Source of the DNA: Oscillospiraceae bacterium
Lineage (GTDB): Bacteria > Bacillota > Clostridia > Monoglobales > WRAG01
Reading direction: 5' to 3'
Assembly (NCBI GenBank): GCA_009780345.1
Contig: WRAG01000017.1
Location: forward strand, 1 to 48,730
Length of the DNA stretch: 48,730 nucleotides
In this document: positions 8,469-30,459 of the stretch, piece after piece
Layout of the letters: every line of letters begins with the position of its first letter
Numbering within the stretch: the first letter of the stretch is position 1
Position numbers and translations under genes: made by a program
Notes under the pieces: generated by a model
What the model saw: only the letters and a program-made list of their open reading frames with translations
Databases searched by the model: none
Told to the model about the DNA's origin: nothing

Positions 8469-8488
8469 CTATCTCGCTCACCACCTTC

Positions 8489-8703
8489 GTCGCAACGCGC
8501 CCTTATTGCTCATTTTTCCGCAAAAAACGCGGCAAAAGCTCACCTTATGGGCGGTTGCTCCTTCGTTTGAGACTTGACTTTGCTGACTTTTGCAAAGTTA
8601 TAGCCGAAAAGTGCAGGGGCGTAAGATTTTGCTGTGTTTGCAAAATCCACAGCCATCTGCTTTCCCAAAACGTCCACTTGCGTTGGGACGTTTCGGGAGC
8701 CCT
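8489..8703 (+). repeat. Module K (copy 1) interrupted by module H (copy 1)
   Basis: K1 runs from GTCGCAAC to GGGAGCCCT, with inner arms CCGC/GCGG and 3' arms ACGTCC/GGGACGT. H1 (8566-8660) splits it between GGTTGCTCC and TTTCCCAAAACG, which are adjacent in K2, K3 and K5. H1 has arms ACTTTGC/GCAAAGT and GATTTTGC/GCAAAATC around the fixed segment AAAAGTGCAGGGGCGTAA. The whole unit lies in the 5' leader of the sigma-factor gene. Confidence 0.8.
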
Positions 8704-17074: not shown

Positions 17075-17998
17075 TTAGTTTGTGCTTATAATAACTGTCT
17101 GTGTTTCTTCGTTCCACTCGACATCCGCGCCGAAAAATTCACCGATAAATCGGAGCGGCACAAATGTTCGGTCATTTATGATTTGCGCCGGAACATCCAT
17201 TCCCTCAACCATTTCACCAATCACGAACGATAAACTTTCTTCGTCAGTAGCAAGCGTAACCTCTTGTGTACGCTCGTCCCAATCAACATCTGCGCCTAAC
17301 GCTTCGGATATTGCTCGAATCGGAACGAGAGTGCGATTGTTTTCAATAGTTGGTCGTTCACCAATATCAAATATCCTATCGTTTAGCCTTATTAAAGATG
17401 TTGTAAATGTGTTAGGCATTGCTACATTTATTTTGTGTATGTCGAAGAATGTTTCCTCGGGGTAAAGTGCGAGTAACCATGAGGGAACAGTTACTTGTAC
17501 AGCATGCCCGTCTTCCACCCACCGATATTGGTTGCTTGTATGCCCACTACCTGTTCTTGCTATCCTATTCCCATTATGTGTTATTTCAATAATATTACGA
17601 TCCCCCGTTACGCTAATCCAATTTTCAATAAAGTTCTCAACATCTCTATTTAAAAACCAACTAATTCTAAGCTCACCCTGTCGCCACGTTTCCCTGCTGA
17701 TGTATACTAATAAAATCATCCCCGGCATTATTACAATATCTGCCAATTCAACCTTAGGCACAACATTTATAAAGTCAAAATAATTTACAGTTCCTTCAAG
17801 GACTTCACCCACTACCCTTACTGCCGCGTGTTCATTCGCTATACTTGAAACTTCATTTTGAGCTCTTTGTCTTGCAGTAATAGCTGAATTATGAAATTCA
17901 CACCTTGAAGAAAAGACGATTGGATTTGGAGAAAGAGCAGAAACGGTATGCGCTAATAAAACTGATATTATTACTATCATCAAAAATAATTTTTTCAT
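17075..17998 (-). CDS. Secreted protein with copper-amine-oxidase-N-like domain
   Basis: A 307-residue exported protein. The signal peptide is [21 protein letters not shown]. The middle (residues 30-195) is of unknown fold. The last 100 residues match the pattern of the Cu_amine_oxidN1 domain: [35 protein letters not shown], then a second half [29 protein letters not shown]. In Clostridia this domain is a common cell-envelope module and does not imply amine oxidase activity. AGGAGGAAG precedes the ATG, whose ATGA overlaps the ygiQ stop. The longer frame upstream is the end of ygiQ and is not used. Confidence 0.85.
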
Positions 17999-19953
17999 TT
18001 CAACTTCCTCCTTTTTTGATAGTTCCCGCCTCTCAACAGGCGGTTTGGCGGTCTGATTAAACAATGCTTATCAAATCCAATCAAATCGAATCGTTTCGCC
18101 TGCGTCAACGCATCGTATACAAGCTGATAATTCTTCGGATTTCGATATTGCAGCAGCGCCCGCTGCATCTGCCGTTCCTTATACGATTTCGGGACGTATA
18201 CTTTTTCCATCGTTAACGGGTCAAGCCCGGTATAGTACATACACGTCGATAAAGTGCCCGGCGTCGGGTAGAAATCCTGCACTTGTTGCGGCTGATATCG
18301 AATGTCCCGCAAATACTCCGCAAGCGCGATTGCGTCGGCGAGCGTGCTTACCGGGTGGCTCGATATCAAGTACGGCACCAAAAATTGCTTCTTTCCAAGT
18401 TCAGAATTGATTTGCTCGTACTTCTTGCGAAACTTTTCGTATACCGAATGTCGCGGCTTGCCCATATATCGCAAAACCTTGTCCGACACGTGCTCGGGCG
18501 CAACTTTTAACTGCCCGCTGATATGGTGTTTTGCTAATTCGGTCAAAAATTTGTCGCTCGAATCCGCCATAATATAGTCATATCGCAAACCGGAGCGCAC
18601 AAACACCTTCTTCACGCCGTCAATCTCTCGCAGTTCGGTGAGGAGGTTCAAATAATCCTTATGCGAAACCTCCAAGTTCCCGCAAGGCGCGGGGTGCAGG
18701 CACTGCCGTTCGCGGCAACTTCCAGATTCAAGCTGCTTCCCGCACGCCGGCGCGCGGAAGTTCGCGGTAGGACCGCCGACGTCGTGAATATATCCCTTGA
18801 AATCGGGATTATACGTGAAATTTTTCGCCTCATTGAGTATGGATTTGTGCGACCGCGCGGTGACGATTCTGCCTTGATGAAAAGTTAGCGCGCAAAAGTT
18901 GCAACCACCGAAGCACCCGCGCGACGATACGACGCTAAACTCAACCTCGTTCAGCGCGGCAACACCGCCAAACTCCTCATACATCGGATGATACGTCCGC
19001 TCGTACGGAAGCGAGTAAGTGAAGTCAAGTTCCTTTGTGGAAAGCGGCATTGCGGGCGGATTTTGCACTATCGTTTTCACGCCGTGCGGCTGCGCGACCG
19101 GCTTGCCGTGAATCGGGTCCTGCTCGAGATATTGCAAGCGAAACGCCTCGGCATATGCGGCTTTGTCGGTCGAAACTTCGTCAAACGACGGCACAATTAC
19201 GGCGTTTGCCGGAAGTTCGTCGTTCGCGTCTTGCACATACGCGGTTCCGGCGATATTTTTAATATTTGCGACTTTTTCGGTTTCCAACGCCCGCGCAATT
19301 TCAACAATCGCCCGCTCGCCCATACCGAAAACCAACAAATCAGCGGTTGAGTCTATCAAAATCCCCCGCCGAACCTTGTCGGAGATGTAATCGTAGTGCG
19401 CAAACCGCCGCAAACTTGCCTCAATTCCGCCGATGATAATCGGCATATTGCGGCCATACGCCTCGCGAATACGGTTGCAGTAAATAATGGTAGTTCTGTC
19501 GGGACGTCGGTTGCTAGTGTTGCCGGATAAATACGGATCGTCCGAGCGTTTTATAAATGGCTCCCCTTGGTCGCTGTGAAGCTTGTCACGAGGGTCCGCC
19601 GAGCCGGCGATGCCCATTCGGGCTGACGCATTGGTTGTTGTTGTCTTCGGGGAGTACGGATCATCCGAGCGAACCTTCTTCGACGCGGTATAGTTTGCGA
19701 CCATGCTGTCCAAATTGCCCGCCGAAACTAAGAAACCAAGGCGTGGTTTGCCTAAACGAGTGAAATCGTCGCAAGTTCGAAAATCAGGTTGGGAGATAAT
19801 TCCGACGGTGAAGCCGTTTGCTTCCAAAACGCGCGGAATAATCGCGCACGCCCAAGCGGGGTGGTCAACATACGCGTCGCCGGTTACAAATATAAAGTCA
19901 AGCCGCTCGATTCCGCGGGCTTGCATATCAAGTTTTGAAATAGGTAGAAACAT
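17995..19953 (-). CDS. ygiQ: YgiQ-family radical SAM protein with an in-frame insertion
   Basis: A 652-residue iron-sulphur protein. The N-terminal domain [17 protein letters not shown] and [18 protein letters not shown] is typical of YgiQ. The radical SAM cluster is [14 protein letters not shown] (Cx3Cx2C), and the C-terminal domain has [19 protein letters not shown] and [10 protein letters not shown] segments. The reaction is not established for the family. Between DPYSP and [12 protein letters not shown], about 40 extra residues occur, bounded by similar RSDDPY segments; at DNA level 17-base near-identical direct repeats lie 123 bases apart. The start fits the family N-terminus, yet there is no SD and the promoter -10 box ends 6 bases before the ATG, suggesting a leaderless mRNA. 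Confidence 0.93.
19532..19671 (-). repeat. In-frame 123-bp insertion or duplication in ygiQ
   Basis: TACGGATCGTCCGAGCG (19532-19548) recurs as TACGGATCATCCGAGCG (19655-19671). Between them are TCGCTGTGAAG and GATGCCCATTCGGGC, which also occur in the truA insertion (21846-21856 and 22017-22031). The segment is 41 codons and stays open. Confidence 0.75.
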
Positions 19954-20009: not shown

Positions 20010-21092
20010 TTAGAATCTGATTACGTTTGCTTGGCTTCCGCCGACAACTAACGCGTGCCGCCGATCGTCCATAATTTGTAGACTTACAATATCGTGGGGA
20101 ACCGTGATAAGCTCTTGCGACCTGCCGTTCGGAGTGATTTTCATAACCGTTCTGAGCCGGTTCGCCAGAATCACGTCGCCCGACACGGTAATATTTCGAA
20201 GTCGTCCTTGCGTTTGATAACTTCCGCGCGGTCTTCCGTCTCTGTTGAAAAATTCAATCGTTGTGTTCCCTCGTCCGGCTTCGAACGCCAAGACGATGCA
20301 ATTTTCGCTGTCCTTATTAAATGTGAGTAAGCTTCTGCCGTTAAAATCCACTTCATACCGAATGAATCCGTTGCGGTTGAACCCTAAAAGCTCGGTATCG
20401 GATATAGCGACCAAAGTTCCGTCGCGATTGAATTTGATTGAAGAAATCATGCTTCGTTCCCGCCGAATGGTTGCGAATTCTTCGTCTTGCGAAATATCAA
20501 CAAACGAAACGACCGACGATATTGCCGCGCCGTCCGCCGAAATTTTGGCGATTGCGATTATATTATTGTTAGGCGAAATGTCAATATCGACTATATGCCC
20601 GTCGCCGACAAACCAACGGTAAACCGGCGCGCCACGGCGGTTGTAAACGGTAACCAATCCGTTAAATCCCATCGCTTCGGTGGCGATTACAGAATAGCCA
20701 TTTCGATTCACGCGTCCGAGCATGATGTTTTCGTCGGTTCCGATACGATAAACCTCGCGAAGTCGTCGATAGACCGCCGCCTCGCTGCTCCACCGTCCGG
20801 CGTGAAGAATATAATTGCCGCTTATATCGGCGAATGGAAAGGAAAACCGCTCGTTTATACTTCCCGCCATCTCGCCTTGGCGATTAATTATCGCCAAGCC
20901 ATCGTTTCTGACCAAAAGGGTCATATTATTATATCCAAACGTCTGGTGCGCCGCCGAGCCGAGCTCTAAATTTCCGCCTTGCAAAACCAAATGCGGAAAT
21001 GATTGATCAAATATAATTCGACCGGCAACGAAAATTCCGACAATGACTACGATGGAAATAATCGTTCGTTTTAAGTTAATTTTCACTTTCAC
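20010..21092 (-). CDS. DUF5711-like membrane-anchored beta-propeller protein
   Basis: A 360-residue protein. One N-terminal transmembrane helix (IISIVVIVGIFVAGRIIF) is followed by a beta-rich extracytoplasmic region with repeated blade-like units: NDGLAIINRQGEMAGS, NGLVTVYNRRGAPVYRWF, ISPNNNIIAIAK, FNRDGTLVAISDTELLGFNRNGF and TIEFFNRDGRPRGSY. This resembles clostridial DUF5711 proteins. The role is unknown; a sensor or scaffold on the outer membrane face is a guess. The start overlaps the truA stop by 4 bases, so it is in the ecf-truA operon. Confidence 0.75.
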   Translation of the reverse strand: MKVKINLKRTIISIVVIVGIFVAGRIIFDQSFPHLVLQGGNLELGSAAHQTFGYNNMTLLVRNDGLAIINRQGEMAGSINERFSFPFADISGNYILHAGRWSSEAAVYRRLREVYRIGTDENIMLGRVNRNGYSVIATEAMGFNGLVTVYNRRGAPVYRWFVGDGHIVDIDISPNNNIIAIAKISADGAAISSVVSFVDISQDEEFATIRRERSMISSIKFNRDGTLVAISDTELLGFNRNGFIRYEVDFNGRSLLTFNKDSENCIVLAFEAGRGNTTIEFFNRDGRPRGSYQTQGRLRNITVSGDVILANRLRTVMKITPNGRSQELITVPHDIVSLQIMDDRRHALVVGGSQANVIRF

Positions 21093-22150
21093 AGTTTCAC
21101 CTCGTTTAAGAACAATCCTTTAGCGGGCGCGGTAACGCCTGCGTTCGCTCGCTGTCCAGATTCGATAATCCGCGGAATGTCGTCGGGGGCAAGCTTCCCT
21201 TGCCCAACTTTTATGATGGTTCCCGCGATAATCCGCACCATATTGTGCAAAAACGACTGCCCCGTAACGGTTATGACGACAAGGTTGTCCGTTTTCTCAA
21301 CAAAACAGTCGGTAATTACTCTAACCGTGTTCTTCTCCTGTCCGTCGTCCCGGCAAACTCCGCTTTGTTCGTTTTCGGACAAAAAGCGTCCGAAAAGCTC
21401 ACTCTCTCCGTTGCCGCTCCTCTTTCCCAAAACGTCCGCTTCTCTGGGACGTTTCGGGAGCCCTAGCTCGCGCAAGCACGAGCTTGTCGTAAACGCGCGG
21501 AAATCGAATTCGCCGACGAATTTTGCCGCCGCAAGGTTCATATTTCCAACGTCAAGCGGCGTTTTCACGTGATAAGCGTAATTTTGCAAAAACGGATCTC
21601 GCTCGACCGAGTTCAACACTTGATAAACGTAGGTTTTACCCTTTACGTCATACCTCGAATGAAAATCGTCCGTTGCGTATTCGGCATCCAAAACCACAAT
21701 GTCTTTCGGCAGTTTGGCGTTCAACGCCCGCTTGACGATCTGCGGGTCCAACGTCGATTGCGTGTGGAAATTGCATATGTACTCCCGCGCGTGAACTCCT
21801 GAATCGGTTCGGGAGCAGCCGGTTATTTTAATATGCTCACTTCGTTCGCTGTGAAGTCCGTCATTTCGTCGAAACTCGCCCTCGTTGCTCGTTTTCGGAC
21901 CGAAACCGTCCGAAAAGCTTCGCCTTGCGGGCGGTTTCTCCTCTTTCCCAAAAAATTTCGGACTTAAGTCCTCATTTTTCGGGAGCCCTGCGCCGGCGGC
22001 CGGAAAATTCCCCGGATGCCCATTCGGGCAGCCCAAAATCTCATTTAATTTATCTTCAAGCACTCCTTGAACGGTCACCCCGTTCTGTTGTTTCTGCCAG
22101 CCAACGTAGTTTGTGCCGTCGTATCTTAATTTCAATAAAATATTGGCCAT
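21089..22150 (-). CDS. truA: tRNA pseudouridine(38-40) synthase TruA with two repeat-derived in-frame inserts
   Basis: A 353-residue enzyme that converts U38-U40 of tRNA anticodon arms to pseudouridine. The N-terminus LKLRYDGTNYVGWQKQ, catalytic Asp in GCSRTDSGVHA (about Asp116), KTYVYQVLN, QSFLHNMVRIIAG and C-terminal APAKGLFLNEV are all standard. The family is about 245-270 residues. The excess is explained by insert 1 (about residues 41-106, between NEILG and IKITG) and insert 2 (about residues 225-272, between TTSSC and KNTVRV). Both are made of module K and related palindromic sequence, read in the same frame in both copies. All catalytic motifs survive, so activity is plausible. The start at 22150 is chosen for its GGGAG SD. 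It overlaps ecfT. Confidence 0.93.
   Translation of the reverse strand: MANILLKLRYDGTNYVGWQKQQNGVTVQGVLEDKLNEILGCPNGHPGNFPAAGAGLPKNEDLSPKFFGKEEKPPARRSFSDGFGPKTSNEGEFRRNDGLHSERSEHIKITGCSRTDSGVHAREYICNFHTQSTLDPQIVKRALNAKLPKDIVVLDAEYATDDFHSRYDVKGKTYVYQVLNSVERDPFLQNYAYHVKTPLDVGNMNLAAAKFVGEFDFRAFTTSSCLRELGLPKRPREADVLGKRSGNGESELFGRFLSENEQSGVCRDDGQEKNTVRVITDCFVEKTDNLVVITVTGQSFLHNMVRIIAGTIIKVGQGKLAPDDIPRIIESGQRANAGVTAPAKGLFLNEVKL
21347..21464 (+). repeat. Module K, copy 2, inside truA
   Basis: Inner arms CGGAC/GTCCG with the AAAAAG loop, 3' arms AAACGTCC/GGGACGTTT, end GGGAGCCCT. On the truA strand it reads GLPKRPREADVLGKRSG... without stops. It forms most of TruA insert 2. Confidence 0.85.
21840..22031 (+). 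repeat. Module K, copy 3, nested in another insert (L) inside truA
   Basis: K3 (21868-21989) has inner arms CGGAC/GTCCG and a remodelled 3' hairpin with a GGACTTAAGTCC palindrome. It is flanked by TCGCTGTGAAG and GATGCCCATTCGGGC, sequences that are close together in the ygiQ insertion. This suggests that K landed inside an earlier insert. The whole is in frame with TruA. Confidence 0.75.
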
Positions 22151-22959
22151 ATTATCTCCCATGTTACTCTATTCGCACCTACAATCAGCACCACAAAAAG
22201 TATCATAAACATGATCGCGTGCATATCAAGTTCGGTCATTTTAAGCGCGTTTAACCGCGTTCGCCCCTCGCCGCCGCGGTAACAGCGGCACTCCATAGCG
22301 GTCGCAAGCTCGTCCGCTCGCCGAAACGCGCTGATAAACAACGGAACCAAAATCGGAATCATCGCTTTCGCGCGCCGCAAAACGTTTCTGCTTTCAAAAT
22401 CCGAGCCGCGCGCCGACTGCGCTTTCATAATTTTGTCGGTTTCTTCAAGCAGCGTCGGAATAAACCGAAGCGCGATGGTCATCATCATCGCCAACTCGTG
22501 CGCGGGTAAGCCGATTTTCTTGAACGGATTGAGCAATCGTTCTAATCCGTCGGTTAGCCGAATCGGTGTGGTTGTCAGCGTTAAAAGCGAGGAGGCGACG
22601 ATCAAAAACGTAATTCTAAGCACCATAAATGCCGCGCCGATAATGCCTTCGTAAGTGATTCTTATAAACCCGAGGCGAAAAATTTCATGCCCGTCTGTCA
22701 TAAAAAGATTTAAAATCGCGGTAAGTAAGATGAAGAACAAAAGTGGACGCAACCCTTTAAGCATAAACTTCGGCGGAACTTTTGAAAGCCATACGATAAA
22801 TGCCGTCGCGACGAACAAAACGCCGTATCCGACAAAGTTTCGGATAAGAAAAATAACCACAATATACGCAAGCGTGAGCATGATTTTCACCCGCGGGTCA
22901 AGGCGGTGAATCACCGATTCGGCGGGGAAATATTGCCCTAAGGTGATGTCTCTTAACAT
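22132..22959 (-). CDS. ecfT: ECF transporter transmembrane subunit EcfT
   Basis: A 275-residue integral membrane protein that couples the two ATPases EcfA1/EcfA2 to exchangeable vitamin-binding S components. The N-terminus HRLDPRVKIMLTLAYIV, several helices, and the coupling helices with the first Ala-Arg-Gly signature AQSARGSDF and second AMECRCYRGGEGRTRL are present; the second motif has Cys where Ala is common (AMEARCY). The C-terminus ends in a further helix (AIMFMILFVVLIVGA). It overlaps ecfA2 by 7 bases and truA by 19 bases. Which vitamin is imported depends on S components encoded elsewhere. Confidence 0.95.
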   Translation of the reverse strand: MLRDITLGQYFPAESVIHRLDPRVKIMLTLAYIVVIFLIRNFVGYGVLFVATAFIVWLSKVPPKFMLKGLRPLLFFILLTAILNLFMTDGHEIFRLGFIRITYEGIIGAAFMVLRITFLIVASSLLTLTTTPIRLTDGLERLLNPFKKIGLPAHELAMMMTIALRFIPTLLEETDKIMKAQSARGSDFESRNVLRRAKAMIPILVPLFISAFRRADELATAMECRCYRGGEGRTRLNALKMTELDMHAIMFMILFVVLIVGANRVTWEIIWPIFY

Positions 22960-26707: not shown

Positions 26708-26824
26708 AGGGCTCCCGCGACGTCCCAACGCAGTGGACGTTGTGGGATAGAGGAGCAACAACGGAGTATGTGAGCTTTTCGGGCGTTGTTTGCCCGAAAA
26801 TGAACAGGCGGAGTTTGTTGCGAC
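26708..26824 (-). repeat. Module K, copy 4
   Basis: Inner arms CGGGC/GCCCG. Read in the TruA-insert frame it begins GLPRRPNAVDVVG and then stops, so this intergenic copy is not open. Confidence 0.8.
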
Positions 26825-27057
26825 GGCGTTTGCGTCCATAGGCGACCGGGATTGGCAAGGGTAGAGCCCTTGTCGCCCGTCCGGTAACGGCAGCCCGCGC
26901 TTTAGCGCGTGGCATTACCTTGTGCCGTTTCCTCGGCGGTTTTCGCCGAGTCAGTGACACATTCCCTCGGTACGGACCCGAAAAAACCTGCGCCCGTTGG
27001 GCGCGAATTTTGCAAAACTTTTTTAAAAAGTTTTCCGGTCTAAGGCGCGTTGCGCCT

Positions 27058-30231: not shown

Positions 30232-30260
30232 TTGACAAATATTAAAGTTCGGTGTATAAT
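30232..30260 (+). promoter_or_regulatory. Promoter of tRNA-Arg
   Basis: TTGACA (30232-30237), 17-base spacer, TATAAT (30255-30260). Module K5 starts two bases downstream of the -10 box. Confidence 0.9.
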
Positions 30261-30261
30261 T

Positions 30262-30383
30262 AGGACTCCCGAAATGTCCCAACGAGGTGGACGTTTTGGG
30301 AAAGAGGAGCAACGCCGAAACATGAGAACTTTTGCCGCGAATTTTTTACGCGGCAAAACGAACAAAGTGAGGCAGTTGCGACG
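30262..30383 (-). repeat. Module K, copy 5, forming the tRNA-Arg leader
   Basis: It fills the whole interval between the promoter -10 box and the tRNA 5' end. Inner arms GCCGCG/CGCGGC and 3' arms ACGTCC/GGGACAT (one weakened pair). Read in the TruA-insert frame it gives GLPKCPNEVDVLGKRSNAET and then a stop. Confidence 0.85.
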
Positions 30384-30384
30384 A

Positions 30385-30459
30385 GGCCCCTTAGTTAAAT
30401 GGATATAACAAGCCCCTCCTAAGGGCTAATTGTGCGTTCGATTCGCGCAGGGGCTGCCA
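30385..30459 (+). tRNA. tRNA-Arg (anticodon CCT)
   Basis: A 75-nt cloverleaf: acceptor GGCCCCT/AGGGGCT (first pair G-U), D arm GTTA/TAAC, anticodon stem AGCCC/GGGCT with loop CTCCTAA, T arm GTGCG-TTCGATT-CGCGC, discriminator G and encoded CCA. A promoter and terminator flank it, and its leader is module K5. Confidence 0.93.

Follow-up and report, generated by a model that had tools for sequence, protein, structure and literature searches.

A two-hairpin repeat of gut Clostridia lies in frame within truA and abuts the ends of stable-RNA genes

The truA gene of an Oscillospiraceae bacterium raises the question of why its product, tRNA pseudouridine 38–40 synthase, is so much longer than the rest of its family. 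A sequence-only reading of the 48,730-nucleotide stretch that carries the gene (contig WRAG01000017.1 of GCA_009780345.1; hereafter the window) had put the excess at about 110 residues and assigned it to two in-frame copies, K2 and K3, of a palindromic module termed K. The open reading frame is a full TruA, as it matches TIGR00071 above the cut-off of that model, and alignment with Escherichia coli TruA (1DJ0) bears out both the size and the location of the excess (Table 1). The first excess, of 63 residues, falls between query residues 44 and 108, after the N-terminal helix and before the strand preceding the catalytic RTDSGVHA motif, which is present, in keeping with the claim that the catalytic motifs are kept. 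The second, of 45 residues, lies within query residues 231–287, where the 1DJ0 chain has 12 residues, and the insert there includes the peptide stretch SGNGESELFGRFLSENEQSGVCRDD. The K-derived share of the two excesses together is only ~81 of 108 residues, the remainder being other repeats or flanking sequence. An AlphaFold prediction of TruA, run without an alignment, gave a pLDDT of 36.8.

Relatives support the assignment. We searched 60 genomes, comprising the host genome and 59 relatives, none closer than order level, and found TruA matches in 58, host included. The TruA frames in most of these genomes span ~245–280 residues and neither insert is found in the aligned TruA of the 57 other genomes, the alignments skipping both stretches.

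Table 1. Coordinates of K copies, truA and associated features. Plain numbers are positions in the window; entries that begin with C give contig and position in the host genome. CM, covariance model.
Feature	Position	Strand or orientation	Basis
K1, split by a nested other repeat (~8559-8639)	8487-8702	-	CM, repeat listing
truA (tRNA pseudouridine 38-40 synthase), 357 aa, two inserts	21089-22162	-	ORF, TIGR00071, 1DJ0 alignment
TruA insert 2, ~residues 230-274, almost entirely K3	21341-21475	-	1DJ0 alignment
K3, full-length, 119 nt, in frame, truA-sense	21345-21463	-	CM, E 8.6e-30
TruA insert 1, ~residues 45-107, K2 with other palindromic sequence either side	21842-22030	-	1DJ0 alignment
K2, full-length, 123 nt, in frame, truA-sense	21866-21988	-	CM, E 7.4e-26
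K4, intergenic, inside a larger repeat, replaces ~8 bp of a hairpin	26709-26826	+	CM, empty-site comparison
Promoter-like TTGACA-17-TATAAT, directly upstream of K5	30232-30260	+	sequence
K5, between sigma-70-like promoter and tRNA-Arg, occupies the whole leader	30263-30384	+	CM, sequence
tRNA-Arg(CCT), zero nt downstream of K5	30385-30459	+	tRNA match, sequence
tex with K	C1:26835	sense	CM, translation, Pfam/NCBIfam
tatD with K	C2:25773	sense	CM, translation, Pfam/NCBIfam
Threonine ammonia-lyase/dehydratase with K	C3:96258	sense	CM, translation, Pfam/NCBIfam

To define K, 23 copies from the host genome were aligned and a covariance model (CM) was built, which returned 39 matches in that genome (best E 2.8e-30, beyond chance). 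Each K is ~115–123 nt long and is laid out as GGGCTCCCG, hairpin 1, GGGAAAGAGGAGC, hairpin 2 and GCGACGA. In alignment A2, 98% of cells are paired and the covariation score is 0.571, compared to 0.196 for shuffles and 0.06–0.09 for slid controls; among copies from relatives the score is 0.648. Both alignments were fitted to the model, which biases the pair counts its way, but the margin over the slid controls is still large. On this strand, G·U pairs far outnumber A·C pairs among the non-Watson–Crick pairs (74 versus 9, and likewise 88 versus 10), indicating that the constraint acts on one folded strand, either RNA or single-stranded DNA. Nearly all copies have GACG as their 3′ end (a CGTC tag), and the termini, GGGCTCCC and CGACG, are not inverted repeats of each other. 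The Rfam 15 covariance models gave no match to K, including no intron or ribozyme match.

The sequence-only reading had also placed K outside genes, and the CM confirms K1, K4 and K5 as such copies. K1 ends, on its 3′ side, 18 nt before an ATG and immediately ahead of the Shine–Dalgarno-like AGGTGGTG. Small repeats are unusually plentiful in the window overall, with at least 24 direct-repeat families of at least 40 nt, many of them palindromic and partly nested. The ygiQ ORF (17995-19953) has an apparent insert of its own at 19555-19720 (minus strand), between two RSDDPY motifs of YgiQ. Segments of that insert have matches at seven further sites in the genome, which suggests that K is not the only repeat family to enter genes.

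K is not peculiar to the host species. At E≤0.01 it is present in 47 of the 60 genomes, which are mostly draft metagenome-assembled genomes (MAGs), often with 20–50 copies each. The nearest named relatives of the host are Monoglobus and other gut Clostridia, and a pattern scan of named genomes found K in uncultured Monoglobus, unnamed Clostridia, Borkfalkia and rumen 'Ruminococcus' MAGs. One pattern match came from Thermus, where the CM gives no K at E≤1e-5, and none of the viral contigs scanned matched the pattern. This distribution indicates that K belongs to gut Clostridia, among which it is an order-wide family. That spread had escaped the sequence-only reading, as had the abutting of K to stable-RNA genes described below.

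How K sits in DNA is visible at sites for which an empty version exists. The K-filled copies of other repeats at C2:3969, C17:26709 and C8:19686 have empty versions that read CACAAATCGC, GGTTTGTG and CG in succession. At C1:55310, K stands in place of CTTTGTACG after GCGTAC; at C8:16735 and C1:88438 it replaces ~9 bp, and C1:45705 is an apparently simple insertion. Stem-loop apices are replaced by K in two pairs of loci from relatives (L188/L199 and L192/L145), and at a further locus (L216, 6611-7078) a whole K lies within RNase P RNA, where it replaces part of the P12 stem (RF00010, 274.9 bits). K usually replaces 8–20 bp, often part of a hairpin, while the sites in L183 and L140 show no clear hairpin. 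No target-site duplication was seen at the empty sites compared, where target bases are lost or the insertion is simple. The left flank is fixed as YA, with A the base before K in 121 of 123 copies. A general excess of palindromes in the sequence immediately 5′ to K is weak (22% versus 13%, stems of at least 6).

In the host genome, the 3′ end of K lies 0–2 nt upstream of 7 of the 33 tRNA genes, on the same strand, against a chance expectation of 0.008. Among 143 distinct copies from the host, relatives and named genomes, 17 have their 3′ end −1 to 3 nt from a tRNA end, 11 of them in sense at the tRNA 5′ end and 6 in antisense at the 3′ CCA end; no copy has its 5′ end near a tRNA. The 3′ end of K also adjoins the RNase P RNA 5′ end in L136 and L205. 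Once this pattern had been noticed, 40 further stretches were fetched, which yielded 37 new copies whose 3′ ends again abut tRNA, rnpB and 5S rRNA genes. In the pooled set of 180 copies, 27 have the 3′ end −3 to +4 nt from a stable-RNA end (tRNA, 5S or rnpB), a count that includes orthologous loci of one genus repeatedly and that comes to ~19 separate cases after merging by genus and gene; the 5′ end falls within this range in 0 of 180. The 3′ end also sits just before Shine–Dalgarno sequences or start codons: a same-strand ATG lies ≤40 nt downstream of it in 18 copies, compared to 2 facing the 5′ end. The genes downstream, judged by their N-terminal sequences, include priA, secA, infA and glmM. 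A tRNA-Pro gene in ten species of one genus (L269-L278) carries 0, 1, 2 or 3 tandem copies between promoter and tRNA. Weaker antisense K-like matches lie just 3′ of this tRNA-Pro in several of these loci.

Five K copies of the host lie in four conserved protein genes, namely truA (two copies), tex, tatD and threonine dehydratase. Thus, the in-frame behaviour that had been likened to Rickettsia palindromic elements in a Firmicute extends to three further genes, and in the ORFs scanned from host and relatives no Pfam domain spans K outside these four. All five copies are in frame, free of stops and in sense orientation. The sequence-only reading held that K2 and K3 are read in the same frame; this stands for hairpin 1, which is read in frame 0, as GLPK, ELPK or GFPK, in 4 of the 5 copies, and in frame 2, as APETS, in threonine dehydratase. 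It does not extend to hairpin 2. K2 and K3 differ in length (123 against 119 nt), which puts their second hairpins in different frames, one shared by K2, tatD and threonine ammonia-lyase and the other by K3 and tex.

The further proposal, that coding copies are selected to stay open, finds no support beyond survivorship. The GLPK frame of K4 and K5 does stop after 13 and 20 codons, as had been noted, but that frame is open in 41% of non-coding copies, and the five coding copies show no special frame. Two coding copies in the same frame give a dN/dS of 0.37, and comparison of either one with a non-coding copy gives 0.30 and 0.47; selection on a K peptide is thus not evident from dN/dS, which is no different between coding and non-coding copies. 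With several frames in use, non-coding copies often open and dN/dS alike, the openness of the coding copies is accounted for by survivorship. The bias of the coding copies lies instead in orientation. Each sense frame is open in 22–41% of non-coding copies and each antisense frame in 63–89%; openness alone would thus favour antisense by more than a factor of two, yet all five are in sense. The chance of five out of five in sense is ~0.003 when weighted by frame openness and 0.03 by a plain coin.

The K copy at G000:C6:52094-52215 (L117) directly abuts the 5′ end of an amidase-like frame (GGIDDGASGHGTIEKEINLAIAL), whose start may be located inside K. In the tex reading frame, TGTTTCACGTGAAACA stands immediately 3′ of K (L099, G000:C1), and fits the ParB parS consensus.

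Could the extra segments of TruA instead be an ancient domain, or an insertion specific to the TruA family? They are encoded in frame and leave truA intact, as such a domain would be. However, they are missing from the aligned orthologues, and the same DNA lies in three unrelated genes and between genes and is not confined to a single reading frame. Copies between genes and out of frame refute this origin, to which we give practically no credence.

In our view, K likely belongs with the small mobile DNA repeats of the REP/RPE type. K would spread through Monoglobus-related Clostridia as two hairpins that fold as one particular strand. It would go in without target duplication, usually swapping out 8–20 bp, often part of a stem-loop, and its GACG end would be set against a boundary such as a stable-RNA end, a Shine–Dalgarno sequence or a start codon. 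Copying of the folded strand probably depends on a trans-acting factor, or else results from template switching between folded strands during replication. Within truA, tex, tatD and threonine dehydratase, sense-oriented copies with an open frame would be those that survived; judged from the reading frames, they would be translated as extra loops, tolerated at the protein surface and probably neutral. Plain hairpin replacement does not predict the exact placement at RNA ends, some empty sites have no clear hairpin, and the placement could instead reflect leader function. Indeed, K could be a leader or processing element under selection, acting in stable-RNA maturation or at mRNA 5′ ends, with the genic copies as by-products. 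The strand-specific covariation would fit such a role, as would the exact coincidence of the 3′ end with tRNA, 5S and rnpB ends, its position immediately ahead of Shine–Dalgarno sequences, and a promoter-to-tRNA leader filled wholly by K. We nonetheless regard it as unlikely. Sister species carry from none to three copies at the same tRNA-Pro gene, K also occurs in antisense at tRNA 3′ ends and inside rnpB, other repeats and protein genes, and only 7 of the 33 host tRNA genes have a full K.

Less likely again is that the ends of mature structured RNAs serve as the target of K, or as the template from which it is copied, with its folded strand joined precisely to RNA-gene ends. Joining would be to the 5′ end of tRNA, 5S or RNase P RNA or to the CCA end of a tRNA, perhaps by way of an RNA or cDNA intermediate, and would make K the bacterial equivalent of the SINE-like or tRNA-targeting elements of eukaryotes. 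We think it improbable that an IS200/IS605-like or RAYT HUH (Y1) transposase moves K as an element of the REP/BIME type. A folded single strand with a CGTC end recalls the CGTC REP family, which includes RPE-4 and RPE-6 (PMC3733652), the left flank YA is fixed, and the host genome has one Y1_Tnp gene. But 9 of the 15 genomes with at least 20 K matches have no Y1_Tnp match, an internal TAA interrupts the one host gene, in whose vicinity the search found no K match, and K insertions remove target bases. That gene, the host's single IS200-like Y1 transposase, is at G000:C31:6324-6680 (L058), and its single reverse transcriptase is at G000:C9:65610-66224. More broadly, a search for a mobilising enzyme yielded none: Y1_Tnp, RVT_1 and IS110 genes are missing from many K-rich genomes, and several (e.g. 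G007, G008, G017, G027 and G036) lack all three families, so resident Y1, reverse transcriptase or IS110 enzymes do not appear to be required, an absence that rests on draft genomes and that novel families would escape. Finally, an intron-like element spliced from RNA might be expected in some of the places where K is found, namely within rnpB, at the ends of tRNA genes and within conserved protein genes. We judge it very improbable, because the frame stays open through K in all five coding copies and no Rfam intron or ribozyme model matches; moreover, K is 119 nt long, no multiple of three, in 3 of the 5, so that exact excision would shift the frame.

As a probable mobile repeat, K seems to work like an RPE, and by behaviour it comes closest to RPEs and CGTC-tagged REPs. 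RPEs (Ogata et al.) are palindromic repeats of 100–150 bp, present in many copies, that occupy non-coding DNA and are also inserted in frame within unrelated housekeeping genes (PMC10969869, PMC3767692). Like them, K is a dispersed palindromic repeat with hairpins (119–123 nt, 39 matches), present in frame and without stops in unrelated protein genes as well as in non-coding DNA. A terminal CGTC is shared by K with RPE-4 and RPE-6 (PMC3733652). Unlike RPEs, K resides in Clostridia, not Rickettsiales, and consists of two defined covarying hairpins placed at tRNA, 5S and rnpB ends; the likeness drawn here is one of behaviour. CGTC REPs have no known dedicated transposase, REPs lie within genes in several species, and the published CGTC REP has a stem of 8–9 bp and a loop of 4–5 nt, with Firmicutes missing from the phyla listed (PMC3733652). 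K shares the terminal CGTC tag, although a four-base tag alone is weak evidence, and its two hairpins in ~119 nt differ from a single 8–9 bp stem in a 20–40 bp unit. Unlike REPs mobilised by RAYTs, no K match flanks the one Y1 gene of the host. Since K departs from RPEs and REPs in size, taxon or enzyme, we liken it to them by behaviour and do not equate it with either.

K resembles MITEs in being short, non-coding and dispersed, and in-frame fusions of MITEs are known, but it has no terminal inverted repeats and no target-site duplication, and target bases are lost. The small dispersed repeats and STRRs of cyanobacteria are, like K, inserted in functional RNA genes and other repeats; they are much shorter and belong to another phylum. 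Our literature search found nothing direct on RPE-like elements in Clostridia or on palindromic repeats beside rnpB, 5S or tRNA genes. In the cited literature, the invasion of protein genes by in-frame palindromic repeats is a speciality of Rickettsiales; here it is seen in gut Clostridia, with a different element. With its exact placement at stable-RNA ends, zero to three copies in sister species and visible empty sites, K offers a natural system in which to study the movement of REP/RPE elements that have no known transposase and the ways in which essential proteins gain new peptide segments.
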